Positions 10,673 to 52,859 of a stretch of DNA of 64,000 nt are shown piece by piece. The DNA is from Planctomycetota bacterium (lineage in GTDB: Bacteria > Planctomycetota > Phycisphaerae > Phycisphaerales > SM1A02). A program made the translations under genes and the position numbers. The notes under the pieces were generated by a model. That model was given only the letters and a program-made list of their open reading frames with translations, was not told the origin of the DNA and made no database searches. The stretch covers positions 744,001 through 808,000 of the forward strand of contig JAIOPG010000002.1 in the NCBI GenBank assembly GCA_021414025.1, read 5' to 3'. Every line of letters begins with the position of its first letter. Within the stretch, counting starts at the first letter, position 1.

Positions 10673-12073
10673 TTAGTGCTCGACACGATGGCCGAGCAGC
10701 GGGCTCAGCTCGCCCACCACCTTGTCGACGGTGGCCTGGTCCCGCGCCTCCAGGTTCAGGCGCAGCAGCGGCTCGGTGTTGCTCATGCGCACATTGCACC
10801 ACCACTCGCCCGCGTCCAGGCTGAGCCCGTCGAGCTCGTAGGTCTTGGACCTGGGGTAGGCCTTCTTGAGCGCCGCGATGGCGCCGAGTTTGTCCTCGTT
10901 CTCGAAATTGATCTCGCCGCTCTGGCGGTAGCGACGGAAGGGCTTGACCAGCTCGGAGAGCGACTTGCCCCCGCCATCGACCAGCGCGTTGACCACCGCG
11001 ATGAAGGCGCGGGCGCCCGAGTCGGTGGCGAACATGTCCTCGAAGTAGAAATGCCCGCTGAGCTCGCCGCCGATCGGCGCCTTCACCTCGGCCAGCTTGG
11101 CCTTCATGAAGACATGCCCCACGCGGCTCTCCACCGGAGTGCCGCCCGCCTCGCGAATTGCCTCGGCCACGCTGCGACTGGAGCGCAGGTCATAGACCAC
11201 GCCGGCGCCGGGTTTTTCCTTCAGGAATCGGCCAAGCATCACCGCCAGCAGCAGATCGCAACCGACCGGCTCGCCCAGTTCGTCGACGATCATGCAGCGG
11301 TCGGCGTCGCCGTCGAAGCAGACGCCGAAGTCCGCCTTGGTCTCGCGGACGCGCGCCCGCACCTCCGCCAGGTTCGCCTCGACCAGCGGGTTGGGCTCGT
11401 GCACGAACTCGCCGCTGGAGTTGTCGAAGTGGATCGGATCGATCTTCAGGCCGGCCACGCCGCCAAAGACCTTGGGCACCATGGTGCCGGCCATGCCGTT
11501 GCTGGCGTCGATGACCACCTTGAGCTTCTTCGATCCGTCGATCGTCTTGGGATTCATCAGCCGCAACAGGTGCGACTTGTAGGCGCTCCACACGTCGCGC
11601 GCCTCGCGGCGACCGCCCTTGGCCACGCACTTCTCGCGCTCGACCATCGCCGCGAAGCGCTGGATGTCGTTCAGCCCGGTCTCCTGGCCGACGGGCTTGG
11701 CGTGGATGCGGCTGATCTTGAAGCCGTTGTAGTTGGCGGGATTGTGGCTGGCGGTGACCTGGATGCCGCCGGCGCACCCGAAATGATTGATCGCGAAGTA
11801 GACCACCGGCGTGTCCACCAAGCCGATGTCGATCACGTTGGCCCCATAGTCCTGCATGCCTTGGGCCACGGCGTCGGCCAGCGACGGGCTGCTCTTGCGC
11901 ATGTCCCGGCCCATGACAATGTGGTGCATCATCGGGTCGGTGAAACCCTGGGCGGCGGCCTGGGTCAGCAGGAATTCCGCAGCCCCATAGCCGATGTGCC
12001 AGGCCAGCTTCTCATTGAGGGGCTTGGGGTAGGTGGCGCGGACGTCGTAGGCTTTGAACACTTTGGCCAGCAT
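10673..12073 (-). CDS. Phosphomannomutase/phosphoglucomutase
   Basis: 466 residues of the alpha-D-phosphohexomutase family. Motifs in order are FKAYDVRATYP near the start, VTASHNPANYNGFK with the phosphoserine, CFDGDADRCMIVDE (Mg-binding loop), GGELSGHFYF (sugar-binding loop) and RMSNTEPLLRLNLEA (phosphate-binding loop). It interconverts hexose 1- and 6-phosphates for nucleotide sugars and cell envelope glycans. Sequence alone does not decide between mannose and glucose specificity. It lies upstream of the KAP-like ATPase gene (42 bp gap) on the same strand and is divergent from the rpsB promoter. Confidence 0.9.
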   Translation of the reverse strand: MLAKVFKAYDVRATYPKPLNEKLAWHIGYGAAEFLLTQAAAQGFTDPMMHHIVMGRDMRKSSPSLADAVAQGMQDYGANVIDIGLVDTPVVYFAINHFGCAGGIQVTASHNPANYNGFKISRIHAKPVGQETGLNDIQRFAAMVEREKCVAKGGRREARDVWSAYKSHLLRLMNPKTIDGSKKLKVVIDASNGMAGTMVPKVFGGVAGLKIDPIHFDNSSGEFVHEPNPLVEANLAEVRARVRETKADFGVCFDGDADRCMIVDELGEPVGCDLLLAVMLGRFLKEKPGAGVVYDLRSSRSVAEAIREAGGTPVESRVGHVFMKAKLAEVKAPIGGELSGHFYFEDMFATDSGARAFIAVVNALVDGGGKSLSELVKPFRRYRQSGEINFENEDKLGAIAALKKAYPRSKTYELDGLSLDAGEWWCNVRMSNTEPLLRLNLEARDQATVDKVVGELSPLLGHRVEH

Positions 12074-12127
12074 GGATTCTCCAAAAAGAGCGATTTTGAA
12101 GGGGGGATCCTAGCGGGCAAATCAGGC

Positions 12128-12157
12128 TTGCCTTGGAGAGGCGAACTTCGTTACAAT
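12128..12157 (+). promoter_or_regulatory. Sigma-70-like promoter of rpsB-tsf
   Basis: TTGCCT (12128-12133) and TACAAT (12152-12157) with an 18-base spacer. Transcription would begin near 12164 and leave an approximately 178-nt leader before rpsB. The region is divergent from the phosphohexomutase gene (start 12073). Confidence 0.5.
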
Positions 12158-12206
12158 CACCCTTCGCGCCGCAATTGATTTTTTGTGGAAGCGTCAGAAG
12201 GAGACC

Positions 12207-12339
12207 CCGTGGTGCTCTTGCTGGTTTTGTCTCGGCGACCCGCAGTGGGAAGCCGAATCTCATGTCCAAAGCGCCCTGATGGCGATTCGGACCACGGACG
12301 AACGCCGGTGTCGCTGCAGATCGCCCAGAAGGAATCGCC
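12207..12339 (+). promoter_or_regulatory. Structured rpsB leader with mutually exclusive helices
   Basis: A continuous 3' strand at 12284-12297 pairs with two separate 5' segments: CCGAATC (12253-12259) with GATTCGG (12284-12290), and CCGTGGT (12207-12213) with ACCACGG (12291-12297), both perfect 7-bp helices that would stack. In competition, GGCGATTC (12281-12288) is perfectly complementary to GAATCGCC (12332-12339). That last stretch overlaps the AAGGA ribosome site and ends 2 bases before the rpsB ATG. So the first fold frees, and the second hides, the initiation region. This suits autoregulation by S2, as known for rpsB leaders elsewhere, but the ligand is inferred. Confidence 0.55.
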
Positions 12340-12341
12340 CC

Positions 12342-13229
12342 ATGGCCTCACTCGCACAGGAACTCGTCGAAGCCGGAGTCCACTTCGGACAACGCCGAAG
12401 CAATTGGAACCCGCGCATGGCTCCCTACATCCACGGAGTCAAGAACCAGGTGCACGTGATCGACGTGCGCGAGACCATCAAGGGCATCCTGCTCGCCAAG
12501 CGATTCATCGCCCGCATCGTCGCCGAGGGCAAGGACGTCTGCTTCGTCGGCACCAAGCGCCAGGCCCGCGGCTGCATCGAGACTCGCTGCGCCGAGGCCC
12601 GCATGCCCTACGTCACCGAGCGCTGGCTCGGCGGCACCCTGACCAACTTCCGCACCATCCGCGAGCGGCTGCGCCGCCTCGAGGAGCTTGAGACCCTGAT
12701 GGCCAGCGGCGACATCCGCAACTACTCCAAGAAGATGGAGAGCCAGCTCGGTCGCGAGCAGAAGAAGATTTTCCGCAACCTCAACGGCATCCGCAACATG
12801 GCCAAGCTGCCCGGCGCCCTGGTGGCGATCGACGTGAACCGCGAGATGAACGCACTGCGCGAGGCGAAGAACCTGGGCATTCCGACCATCTGCCTGATCG
12901 ATTCCGACGGCGACCCCGAGTTCTCCGACATTCCGATTCCGGGCAACGACGACAGCATGCGGGCCATCGACATCGTGATCCGCGAGCTCTGCGCCGCGGT
13001 CGAGGAAGGCCGCACCACCCGCGTCGAGGCCGCCGCCACCCAGGGCGAGCGCAGCGACGCGACGGCGACCTCCGAAGGCGAATTGACCGACGGGGCCCCC
13101 GCTCCACGGTCCAGCCGCGGCGGACGAAGCGTCTTCCGCGTCCGCGCCCAGGCCGACGAAACCGCCGGGTATTCGGCCCGCGAGCCCGACGCCGCGGCGG
13201 CGACCCCCGCCAGCGCCGACAAGATCTGA
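12342..13229 (+). CDS. rpsB: Ribosomal protein S2
   Basis: 295 residues. The S2 core runs from LVEAGVHFGQRRSNWNPRMAP through VGTKRQARG, ERWLGGTLTNFRTI and PGALVAIDVNREMNALREA to PTICLIDSDGDPE and IPGNDDSMRAI. After about residue 225 there is an Ala/Ser/Arg-rich tail of about 70 residues, longer than in E. coli S2; such tails occur in other phyla. The ATG at 12342 follows AAGGA at 12329-12333. A long in-frame upstream reading is leader RNA, not protein. It forms an operon with tsf (82 bp downstream). Confidence 0.96.
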   Translation: MASLAQELVEAGVHFGQRRSNWNPRMAPYIHGVKNQVHVIDVRETIKGILLAKRFIARIVAEGKDVCFVGTKRQARGCIETRCAEARMPYVTERWLGGTLTNFRTIRERLRRLEELETLMASGDIRNYSKKMESQLGREQKKIFRNLNGIRNMAKLPGALVAIDVNREMNALREAKNLGIPTICLIDSDGDPEFSDIPIPGNDDSMRAIDIVIRELCAAVEEGRTTRVEAAATQGERSDATATSEGELTDGAPAPRSSRGGRSVFRVRAQADETAGYSAREPDAAAATPASADKI

Positions 13230-13311: not shown

Positions 13312-14112
13312 ATGGCAACAGTACAAGTGAATCCCAAGGACGCGATGGCCCTTCGCCAGCGCACCGGACTGGGCGTGATGGATTGCAAGGACGCGCTGGC
13401 CCAGAATGGCGGCGACATGGCCAAGGCCGAGGCGTGGCTGCGCGAGAAGCTCAAGGGCAAGATGGATGCCCGCGTCGACCGGCCCGCGGGCCAGGGCGTG
13501 ATCGCGGTGTTCAGCCAGCCGGGCAAGGCGGCGATCGTCGAGATCCGCGCCGAGACCGACTTCACCGCGAAGAACACTGAGTTCCGCGCCATGGCGCAGA
13601 CCCTCGCCAAGCTCGGCTGCGAGCAGAGCGGCGAGATCGCCATGACCGCCCCGATGAAGGCGGCACTGGACGAGGTCCGCATCAAGACCGGCGAGAACAT
13701 CTCCTTCGGCCGCGGGCTCTGCCTGCAGGGCGGCAACTTCGCCCACTACATCCACCATGACGGACGCCTGGGCGTGCTGCTGCAGTTCGAGGGCACGCTG
13801 GCCCCCGACCTCGCCACCGGCATCTGCCAGAGCGTGGCCGCCGCCGTGCCGACGCCGATCGCGGTCGACGAGTCCGGCGTGCCCGCCGACGTGATGGCCG
13901 CGAAGCGCGCTGAGGCGGTCGCCGAGGCCAAGGCCACCGGCAAGCCCGAGCAGATCGCCGTGAAAATGGCCGAGGGCAAGATCCGCAAGTTCCTCGAGGA
14001 AGTCACCTTGCTCGGCGCGGTCTACGTCAAGGACGAGACCAAGAAGATCAAGGATCTGCTTCCCGCCGGGACGCGCGTGCTTCGATTCGTGCGCATGACC
14101 GTCGGCGGCTAA
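13312..14112 (+). CDS. tsf: Translation elongation factor Ts
   Basis: 266 residues; recycles EF-Tu-GDP. The UBA-like N-terminus has LRQRTGLGVMDCKDAL (signature 1) and the core has EIRAETDFTAKNTEFR (signature 2, with TDFTAKN in place of TDFVAKN). The dimerisation region FLEEVTLLGAVYVKDETK is near the C-terminus. AGGAG precedes the ATG by 8 bases. The rpsB-tsf order is conserved in bacteria. The stop codon overlaps the stop of the convergent HIT gene by two bases, and an intrinsic terminator follows about 20 bp later. Confidence 0.96.
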   Translation: MATVQVNPKDAMALRQRTGLGVMDCKDALAQNGGDMAKAEAWLREKLKGKMDARVDRPAGQGVIAVFSQPGKAAIVEIRAETDFTAKNTEFRAMAQTLAKLGCEQSGEIAMTAPMKAALDEVRIKTGENISFGRGLCLQGGNFAHYIHHDGRLGVLLQFEGTLAPDLATGICQSVAAAVPTPIAVDESGVPADVMAAKRAEAVAEAKATGKPEQIAVKMAEGKIRKFLEEVTLLGAVYVKDETKKIKDLLPAGTRVLRFVRMTVGG

Positions 14113-14905: not shown

Positions 14906-14979
14906 CGTCCTTGGTGCGGGTCGAACGCACAACCTTCGCCTTCGGAGGGCGACGCTCTATCCAGTTGAGCTACAAGGAC
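14906..14979 (-). tRNA. tRNA-Arg (anticodon CCG)
   Basis: Cloverleaf on the minus strand: acceptor GTCCTTG/CAAGGAC, D-arm GCTC-AACTGGAT-AGAGC, anticodon stem TCGCC/GGCGA around loop CTCCGAA (anticodon CCG), variable AGGTT, T-arm GTGCG-TTCGACC-CGCAC, discriminator G. CCA is not encoded. It decodes CGG, a frequent Arg codon at this GC content. Confidence 0.93.
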
Positions 14980-51188: not shown

Positions 51189-52795
51189 GCGCCTTCCTTC
51201 CCATGGGCCCGAAGATCGCGGTGCTGATGCCGGAGATCATCGTCTTCGGCGGCAGCGTTGTGGTCAGCATCCTGGGCCTGAGCAAGAGCCGCACGATCCG
51301 CAAAAGCGTTCCGATGATCGCCGCCTTCACGCTCTTGGCCGCCTTGGCCGCACTGGCCACCGGCTACTCCAACGAGGCCGCTGAGCAGGCGGGCGTGCTG
51401 ATGCCCGGCTTCAACAAGATCATCAAGGTCATAATCCTTGTGGTCGGACTGGGCCTGGTGGCCATCGCGGTCGGCCACGTCGATCGCCGCATGGAGGACG
51501 CCGTCGCCCGCGGCGTCACCGCCTTTGATCCGATCCGCGTGGTGCGCGGCGAGTTCCACGCCTTCATGCTGCTGAGCATCTGCGGCGCGATGCTGATCCC
51601 GGGCAGCCCCGATCTGGTGTGGTTCTTCCTGGCCCTGGAGCTGACCAGCCTGCCCACCTACATCATGGTGGCCATGAGCCGCGGCACGCGCCGCGCGCAG
51701 GAAGCCGCGGTGAAGTACTTCTTCCTCGGCGCCATGAGCACGGCGATCTTCCTGTATGGCTTCGCCCTGATCTACGGCAGCACCGGCTCGCTGCAGCTCT
51801 CCACCATCCGCGAGGTCTTCGCCGACCAGACCGCCCGCGGCGGCATCGACGCGCTGGGCATCACGGGATTGATCTTCTGCATCCTGGGCTTCTGCTTCAA
51901 GCTGGCCGCGGCGCCGATGCACTTCTACGCGCCGGACGTGTACGAAGGTGCCGCGAACCCCGTCACCGGATTCCTCTCCTTTATTCCCAAGATGGCGGGC
52001 TTCTCCGCGCTGGCGGTGCTGCTGAGCACGGTGGGATGGGCGGGCCACGCCGGACTCTCCACCAATGGACAGGTGATCGCCGGTCTGCCGGCGCCGATCC
52101 TGGCCACGCTCTGGATGATCTGTGCGCTCACGATGACGCTGGGCAACATCGGCGCGCTGCTGCAGAAGTCGGTCAAGCGCATGCTGGCCTACAGCTCGAT
52201 CTCCCACTCGGGCTACATGGTGCTGGCGATCATCGCGGGACCCGGCCTGGGCTTCCAGTCGCTGCTCTTCTACATGATCTCCTACGGCGTCACCAACCTC
52301 GCCATCTTCGGCGCCCTCTCCGGGCTGCAGAAGCGCGGCGAGGACGTCGAAAGCTTCGAGGAACTCAGCGGCATCGGGCGGCGCTACCCAGGGCTCGCGT
52401 CGTGGCTGGCCATCGGAAGCGGCTCGCTCATGGGCATGCCCCCGCTGGTGGGGTTCTGGGCGAAGCTGATGCTCTTCATGGCGGGCATCGAGGCGGGCCA
52501 CACGCCGCTGGTGATCATCGCCGCGCTCAACAGCGCCATCAGCGTCTGGTACTACCTGCGGCTGGTCGGCGTGCCGATCCTCTCGCCGCCGGGCACATCT
52601 TCCGAGGGCGTGCTCAAGGGACCCAGCTCATGGCCGCGCTTCGCCGCAGCAGTGGCGGCCGTGCTGGTGATTGTCCTGCCGATCTTCTCGTCGCGGATCC
52701 TGGCCAGCAGTGCCGGCGGCGACCCGGCCCGCCCGCTCACCACGGCCAAGCCCAAGGTGAAACTTCCGCTACACTCTTCGCCCACGCGGCTGTAG
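51185..52795 (+). CDS. nuoN: NADH-quinone oxidoreductase subunit N; gene ends inside a tRNA
   Basis: 536 residues. Motifs include MLIPGSPDLVWFFLALELTS (conserved Glu), CFKLAAAPMHFYAPDVYEGA (Lys region), GNIGALLQKSVKRMLAYSSI and SHSGYMVLAIIAG. It completes the membrane arm with NuoJKLM; no nuoA-I or nuoH genes are in the window. The final codons and the TAG stop (52793-52795) lie within the 5' acceptor stem and following bases of tRNA-Arg(ACG), so the mRNA and tRNA share 10 bases. Confidence 0.95.
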   Translation: MSAFLPMGPKIAVLMPEIIVFGGSVVVSILGLSKSRTIRKSVPMIAAFTLLAALAALATGYSNEAAEQAGVLMPGFNKIIKVIILVVGLGLVAIAVGHVDRRMEDAVARGVTAFDPIRVVRGEFHAFMLLSICGAMLIPGSPDLVWFFLALELTSLPTYIMVAMSRGTRRAQEAAVKYFFLGAMSTAIFLYGFALIYGSTGSLQLSTIREVFADQTARGGIDALGITGLIFCILGFCFKLAAAPMHFYAPDVYEGAANPVTGFLSFIPKMAGFSALAVLLSTVGWAGHAGLSTNGQVIAGLPAPILATLWMICALTMTLGNIGALLQKSVKRMLAYSSISHSGYMVLAIIAGPGLGFQSLLFYMISYGVTNLAIFGALSGLQKRGEDVESFEELSGIGRRYPGLASWLAIGSGSLMGMPPLVGFWAKLMLFMAGIEAGHTPLVIIAALNSAISVWYYLRLVGVPILSPPGTSSEGVLKGPSSWPRFAAAVAAVLVIVLPIFSSRILASSAGGDPARPLTTAKPKVKLPLHSSPTRL

Positions 52796-52859
52796 CTCAA
52801 TTGGATAGAGCACAAGCCTACGAAGCTTGGGGTTGCAGGTTCGAGTCCTGCCAGCCGCG
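52786..52859 (+). tRNA. tRNA-Arg (anticodon ACG)
   Basis: Acceptor GCGGCTG/CAGCCGC, D-arm GCTC-AATTGGAT-AGAGC, anticodon stem CAAGC/GCTTG around loop CTACGAA (anticodon ACG, expected to be deaminated to ICG), variable GGGTT, T-arm GCAGG-TTCGAGT-CCTGC, discriminator G. CCA is not encoded. Its first 10 bases are also the end of nuoN. Confidence 0.95.

Follow-up and report, generated by a model that had tools for sequence, protein, structure and literature searches.

In Escherichia coli, ribosomal protein S2 represses the rpsB-tsf operon via its 5' untranslated region (5' UTR), and effective repression requires S1 as well (PMC10931766). In the parts of that paper used here, repression is assigned to structures away from the ribosome site, S2 is described as a late joiner of the 30S subunit, and the mechanism of autoregulation as still unclear. 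In the rpsB motif, the stem P1 is accompanied by two hairpins, P2 and P3, and the 3' extension of P1 forms a pseudoknot with J2-3; the groups named for it in the portion of Meyer et al. 2009 (PMC2704228) on which we draw are Proteobacteria, Cyanobacteria, and Firmicutes, and Planctomycetes are not among them. In the literature, searched mainly outside subscription papers, we found no planctomycete S2 leader described, in agreement with the initial annotation of this DNA, which had taken such a leader to be undescribed.

The window, i.e. the whole stretch of 64,000 nucleotides analyzed here, contains a conserved leader of ~178 nt (about 12164-12341) upstream of rpsB. As assessed with Rfam, there is no family match at this leader, nor at the leaders of 20 relatives, two of which have four below-gathering matches elsewhere. 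In the window, only two tRNA genes reach the gathering score, at 14906-14979 on the minus strand and 52786-52859 on the plus strand. The E. coli S2 leader matches the family t44 (RF00127) with 83.5 bits. At E ≤ 10, t44 had no hit within 12100-12400, and at E ≤ 0.001 it had none in any of 148 genomes of the class; among the 14 genomes used as controls for this search, E. coli passed the cut-off and Thermotoga maritima fell short of it.

The rpsB-tsf locus and its predicted transcript start

The rpsB gene is the sole PF00318-family match in its genome and is followed by tsf (Table 1). A PGM/PMM gene on the minus strand, starting at 12073, is divergent from rpsB, and the leader lies between the two. 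Shuffled versions of the 12050-12360 interval, in which the predicted promoter was found, gave 0.0 promoter-like sites, and the promoter words TTGCCT and TTACAATC are retained in the other eight leaders of the genus (alignment A2). Transcription is predicted to start at ~12164, upstream of every leader element, rather than downstream of 12260, a position that the initial annotation had regarded as incompatible with its leader. A terminator-like site was sought at the leader and none was found, which argues against a terminator-type attenuator.

Table 1. Features of the rpsB leader and adjoining genes, with positions in the window
Feature	Position	Strand	Basis
Promoter, predicted, sigma-70-like (TTGCCT, 18-nt spacer, TACAAT)	12128..12157	+	sole promoter-like site in 12050-12360
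P0, 5'-terminal hairpin CCGCAA/TTGTGG, T-rich loop	12169..12188	+	read from sequence
Strand a, CCGTGGT, 5' half of pseudoknot helix a/a'	12207..12213	+	genus pairing, swap control
Hairpin P2, TCGGC-ga-CCC-gcagt-GGG-aa-GCCGA	12232..12256	+	genus pairing, double changes
Strand x, AGCGCCC, inside conserved AAGCGCCC (12269-12276)	12270..12276	+	conservation, pairing with x'
Strand c, GGCG-a-TTCG, A12285 bulged, 5' half of c/c'	12281..12289	+	swap control, double changes
Strand a', ACCACGG, in c/c' hairpin loop, partner of a	12291..12297	+	genus pairing, swap control
Strand c', CGAACGCC	12299..12306	+	swap control, double changes
Strand x', GG-tgt-CGCT	12307..12315	+	conservation, pairing with x
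Shine-Dalgarno site, AAGGA	12329..12333	+	read from sequence
rpsB, ribosomal protein S2, 295 aa	12342..13229	+	PF00318, 6.5e-76
tsf, elongation factor Ts, next downstream of rpsB	13312..14112	+	PF00889, 5.4e-41

The hairpin P0 has counterparts in relatives from the genus (CACAA/TTGTG and CACAT/ATGTG, found by eye), and a T-rich-loop hairpin just past the predicted start recurs in other leaders, e.g. L006 and L012, in which a T-rich stretch lies between GCTC and GAGC. A 5' hairpin of this kind could serve S1 binding or protection of the 5' end.

A pseudoknot leader found by comparison of relatives

Genes for S2 were detected in 165 of the 181 genomes of the family, 14 of the 16 of the genus, and 146 of the 148 in the class sample. 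Leaders were drawn from the loci of this rpsB search and from 120 further stretches. Five of 196 loci were dropped before the word search, namely L032 and four that were partial or duplicates, and the 191 processed comprise 101 from the family, 21 from the order outside the family, and 69 from the rest of the class. Two words are conserved upstream of the Shine-Dalgarno (SD) site, AAGCGCCC and CGGTGTCGCTG, which are found in exact form in 90 and 63 of the 101 family loci, respectively. At a loose score, both words are present in 100/101 family, 15/21 order, and 11/69 other class loci; we regard the 11 passes in the rest of the class as noise, which may also affect the 15 in the order. Among the 122 family and order loci, 7 fell below the word score and 115 were kept, 8 of which, with odd interior lengths, were excluded from the alignment and the swap tests. 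The non-redundant set has 76 leaders: 65 entered alignment A1, and 11 were omitted (L022, L026, L084, L085, L086, L090, L093, L137, L138, L140, and L185), mostly for long interiors, L093 being doubtful. Pair counts for the genus refer to nine leaders (the window and eight others); the divergent G105, G108, and G113 were aligned and left uncounted.

In the leaders read, the elements follow one another in the 5' to 3' order a, P2, x, c, a', c', x', SD, and start codon, and longer members have an additional hairpin between c and a'. The strands x/x' and c/c' form an elongated hairpin, and a', in its loop, pairs with the upstream strand a, which lies 77 nt on its 5' side, with hairpin P2 sitting between a and x. 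Because a/a' crosses x/x' and c/c', the leader is predicted to be an H-type pseudoknot. The knot ends just upstream of the SD, with 13 nt between the two in the window and usually fewer in relatives. In 106 of the 115 family and order leaders, the stretch from x' to the start codon contains a word that a loose list counts as SD-like; it starts at a median of 7 positions past the last x' base, compared with 14 in the window.

Each helix of the knot, and P2, carries compensatory changes among relatives. In a swap control on 67 non-redundant leaders, in which own strands were compared with those of the others in 200 permutations, c/c' reached z 11.5 (10.1 when the 3' stretch was shortened) and a/a' z 8.0-8.1, and 17/67 and 11-12/67 leaders, respectively, singly beat 95% of their own swaps. 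The upstream strand paired against the SD region gave z -0.7. Negative controls gave z -0.6 and 3.7, the latter for upstream positions -110..-70 against the interior, probably because strand a falls there in leaders with long spacers. The 65 aligned cores contain 87 double-change cells, versus 38 in shuffled alignments (0/500 shuffles were as high), and an alternative c/c' register has 51, versus 35.8 in shuffles. Double changes occur in all six c/c' columns counted, despite a one-position register shift in some leaders. As for x/x', six pairs are formed in 65/65 leaders, a count that is partly by construction because x and x' were placed by consensus likeness; a seventh possible pair is formed in 7/65. 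Double changes affect two x/x' pairs (C-G to U-A once and G-C to A-U twice), and the other four are invariant.

Within the genus, the nine leaders have 4 doubly changed pairs, versus 0.8 in shuffles, and again 0/500 shuffles were as high. P2 forms 8/8 pairs in all nine, with changes on both sides at 3/8 pairs, and c/c' has one double change, from C-G to U-A, between the window and its relatives. The a/a' helix, with 7/7 pairs, is invariant in the nine leaders counted; it varies in other members of the genus (CCGTGGA/TCCACGG versus CCGTTGA/TCAACGG) and across genera, e.g. GAGATGGACC/GGTCCATCTC in L170. In L008, the 3' word GGTGTCGCTG is present twice, with starts 21 nt apart, as if x' had been duplicated.

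Control at the DNA level, through promoter or repressor sites, could also conserve such a stretch, with pairing being incidental, and the location of the leader between divergent genes would suit this reading. It is made extremely improbable by the double changes that preserve pairing in all four helices (P2, c/c', a/a', and x/x'), and by the position of the element, which lies past the predicted promoter and extends as far as the SD.

The initial annotation had proposed a switch in which 12281-12297 alternates between a stacked upstream pairing and a pairing with 12332-12339 that hides the SD. The three complementarities that it claimed are all present in the window: 12253-12259 (CCGAATC) with 12284-12290 (GATTCGG), 12207-12213 (CCGTGGT) with 12291-12297 (ACCACGG), and 12281-12288 (GGCGATTC) with 12332-12339 (GAATCGCC), the last overlapping the AAGGA site. 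When covariation was sought in the three helices, compensatory changes were found in the long-range helix, which is a/a' and covaries across genera, but not in the other two. The helix 12253-12259/12284-12290 has 7/7 pairs in the window and 5-6/7 in the eight genus relatives, in which changes lead to G-U pairs or mismatches, and its family analogue has z 1.2. It shows no compensation and clashes with P2 and c, which compete for the same strands, so that the proposed stack of two upstream helices is not borne out. The SD-sequestration helix, with which c also competes, has 8/8 pairs in the window and 4-5/8 in 7/7 complete genus relatives (the region is incomplete in the eighth), and its family analogue has z 0.0. 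This alternative helix over the SD is not conserved in the genus relatives and gains no support in the family. Pseudoknot-blind energies do favor the switch, since the sequestration helix and the stack, when imposed, give -58.2 and -53.9 kcal/mol, respectively, versus -52.8 for the core and P2 without a/a', and the complementarities themselves are real. Set against the incomplete pairing in relatives and the exclusion of P2, which has compensatory changes, these points leave the switch very unlikely. The elements c/c', x/x', and P2 were absent from that single-sequence model and were found by comparison. The broader proposal of a structured, r-protein-type leader of rpsB-tsf holds, as a conserved and structured 5' UTR with covariation.

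The minimum free energy (MFE) of the whole leader shows no excess stability over shuffled sequences (z 0.02). The MFE of the window leader, -62.3 kcal/mol, belongs to a different fold, relative to which imposing the core and P2, with a/a' unpaired, costs 9.5 kcal/mol, the upstream stack 8.4, and the sequestration helix 4.1. In the window, pseudoknot-blind folding assigns P2 a pair probability of ~0.04, c/c' one of ~0.035, x/x' ~0.01, and a/a' 0. Forming the 7-bp a/a' helix would offset some of the 9.5 kcal/mol, though not clearly the full amount. In isolation, the window core (12269-12317) folds nearly as drawn, and 12262-12341 folds otherwise. Judged by x/x', the drawn fold is obtained for the isolated core of 60/67 leaders, a count without its own control, and cores with shuffled interiors are almost equally stable (mean z -0.6). 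Because pseudoknot-blind folding is unfavorable, the structure is argued from comparison, and the mechanism proposed below from analogy.

Distribution of the leader and its linkage to rpsB

Searches were done with R1, a covariance model of the leader core made from 65 of the family and order leaders, so that detection of the leader is partly by construction, which does not extend to the rarity of other sites. In its own genome, the leader of the window is matched at E 3e-5, with one other place at E ≤ 1 (0.319). At E ≤ 0.01, R1 matches 153/181 family genomes, 152 of which are among the 165 with rpsB. Among 150 matches listed, 144 lie 30-97 nt upstream of the S2 domain; the remaining 6 are four in genomes without a listed rpsB place and two second matches elsewhere, and 5 further matches are outside this count. 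No R1 match was found in 13 of the 165 family genomes with rpsB, three of which (G057, G103, and G107) have this gene at the very start of a contig. In the genus g14 (G050-G053), rpsB is present and R1 matches 0/4 genomes, and the word search also failed in L161, its one leader in the set; the leader of this genus has apparently been lost or has strongly diverged.

In the class sample, 25/148 genomes match R1 at E ≤ 0.05. All 19 matches with E < 0.001 are directly before rpsB (10 in the family and 9 in the rest of the order), whereas 0/10 of those with E 0.001-0.05 are at rpsB, as assessed by comparing the places by eye. In the order outside the family, the genome-wide search with R1 found the leader in 9/21 genomes, and a search limited to upstream regions added L080. 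In a phylum sample of 195 genomes, nine outside the order match R1 at E ≤ 0.05. The best match outside the order, in L206 (E 5e-6), was rejected as false, since there are long open frames at this place and none was recognized as S2; R1 E-values are accordingly rough. Judging from these searches, the leader is present in most of the family and part of the order, with no confirmed case elsewhere in the phylum.

A pattern scan of GTDB returned at least 119 stretches. Among those listed, 36 have a same-strand rpsB start 10-42 nt downstream and 83 have no S2 match (tblastn, 1e-10). The rpsB-linked stretches, at least 36, carry 30 planctomycete names, four names reading 'uncultured bacterium', and two others. 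The planctomycete names are mostly Phycisphaerae, Phycisphaerales, Phycisphaeraceae, or plain Planctomycetota, with one Kuenenia. Bins named 'Cyanobacteria' and 'Limnohabitans' were taken as mislabeled, because their S2 proteins are 68 and 72% identical to that of the window.

Related forms may exist elsewhere in the class. Nine of the 69 leaders from outside the order have AAGCC...GGCTG at equal spacing before rpsB, and all belong to the family f10, of which they represent 9 of the 11 loci fetched (L047, L049, L050, L051, L054, L059, L068, L102, and L129). CTTGGC often lies between AAGCC and GGCTG in this form. The AAGCG...CGCTG of the order itself occurs in 2/69 rest-of-class leaders, a T-A pair at the inverted position in another count of 2/69, and six non-Watson-Crick combinations were counted there. 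From its sequence, the f10 form is probably a sister S2 leader in which one of the x/x' pairs is inverted. Three leaders of the family f8 (L121, L128, and L133) have AAGCGAT...ATCGCT or AAGCGA...TCGCT upstream of rpsB, possibly a further variant of the leader.

Putative control by S2 and comparison with known leaders

Taken together, comparison of relatives shows a predicted pseudoknot structure, its conservation, and its attachment to rpsB. As to function, sequence comparison and the E. coli precedent make it probable, in our view, that the rpsB-tsf leader is a cis-acting regulatory RNA that senses free S2 via the pseudoknot and blocks initiation; most likely, it is the planctomycete version of the known self-control by S2. 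When S2 is in surplus over assembling 30S subunits, it would bind the knot. The bound knot would be stabilized, and binding of the 30S subunit at the adjacent SD would be blocked or stalled, which would lower synthesis of S2 and, as it is encoded in the same operon, of EF-Ts. Because the SD is close behind x', a bound and stabilized knot would lie in the footprint of the initiating 30S subunit. We infer S2 as the ligand, repression as the outcome, steric blocking rather than entrapment as its mode, and the transcription start. Since E. coli S2 and S1, as described in the parts of PMC10931766 used here, repress from structures away from the ribosome site, a similar logic is plausible in this leader.

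Alternatively, as a structured regulatory or stabilizing element of rpsB-tsf, the leader might respond to something other than S2 by itself, such as S1, S1 in complex with S2, EF-Ts, or a further factor, or it might be a ligand-free standby or translation-enhancing structure. The T-rich loop of the 5' hairpin may suit S1, E. coli repression is described as effective with S1 as well (PMC10931766), and the SD is free in the pseudoknot model. In the scans, by contrast, the element adjoins rpsB and no second recurring neighbor was seen (matches away from rpsB being unannotated, except that in L206), and S2 is the only r-protein encoded by rpsB and tsf. On these grounds we consider this alternative unlikely, though it deserves more weight than the switch, and we retain sensing of free S2 as the preferred reading.

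The occurrence of GTGCCCTTGAGG in E. coli h26 (read in L348) prompted the idea that the leader mimics S2 sites of 16S rRNA; this was rejected, because the leader and the 16S rRNA of the same genome share 4 8-mers and 1 9-mer, versus 4.2 and 1.2 after shuffling. This 16S rRNA is without GCGCCCTT and GGTGTCGC, and contains AGCGCCC and GGTGTC once each.

On balance we lean slightly towards an order-specific class of S2-sensing leaders, marked by a conserved sequence of its own and by a loop that pairs upstream in a pseudoknot. Such a class would have had an origin separate from that of the proteobacterial rpsB motif, or would have diverged until the sequences are no longer recognizably alike, with pseudoknot control by S2 next to the SD perhaps being class-wide. 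The last point comes from the putative sister form in another family of the class, with its inverted x/x' pair. The analysis provides a candidate regulatory RNA for bacteria in which we found no S2 leader described, defines it by coordinates, a consensus, and a covariance model, and illustrates how a plausible single-sequence model can be corrected by comparison. Given that S2 joins late and that the E. coli mechanism is described as unclear in the source cited above, a second RNA that differs in sequence but has its pseudoknot elements in a similar order would make it possible to ask what S2 recognizes.

As an object, the leader is of the same kind as the 20 r-leader candidates obtained by comparative genomics in Eckert and Weinberg 2020 (PMC7247131). 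The main text of that paper contains neither 'uS2' nor 'Planctomycet', and in the parts consulted its sole mention of rpsB is in the row of a Bacteroidia L13-type leader. Like t44, as outlined in the sources used here, the planctomycete leader is located in the 5' UTR of rpsB(-tsf) and has a pseudoknot upstream of the ribosome site. If a/a' is equated with P1, the order of elements is also the same, i.e. P1 5' strand, P2, J2-3 strand, P3 (in longer members), P1 3' strand, and J2-3 partner. The words differ, being AAGCGCCC and CGGUGUCGCUG in planctomycetes and GGGUGC and GUGGAGGC in the t44 consensus, and R1 has no match at E ≤ 10 in the E. coli S2 leader. Furthermore, the planctomycete J2-3 pseudoknot helix, unlike that of t44, is long and conserved and continues into c/c', which surrounds the 3' strand of P1; lengths are different as well. 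The shared order does not show descent; together with the different words and the lack of an Rfam match, it suggests a leader built like an S2 leader, short of membership in t44. A precedent, for another gene and protein, is offered by the rpsO leaders, in which one r-protein, S15, is described as being served by distinct structures across phyla (PMC4137082).
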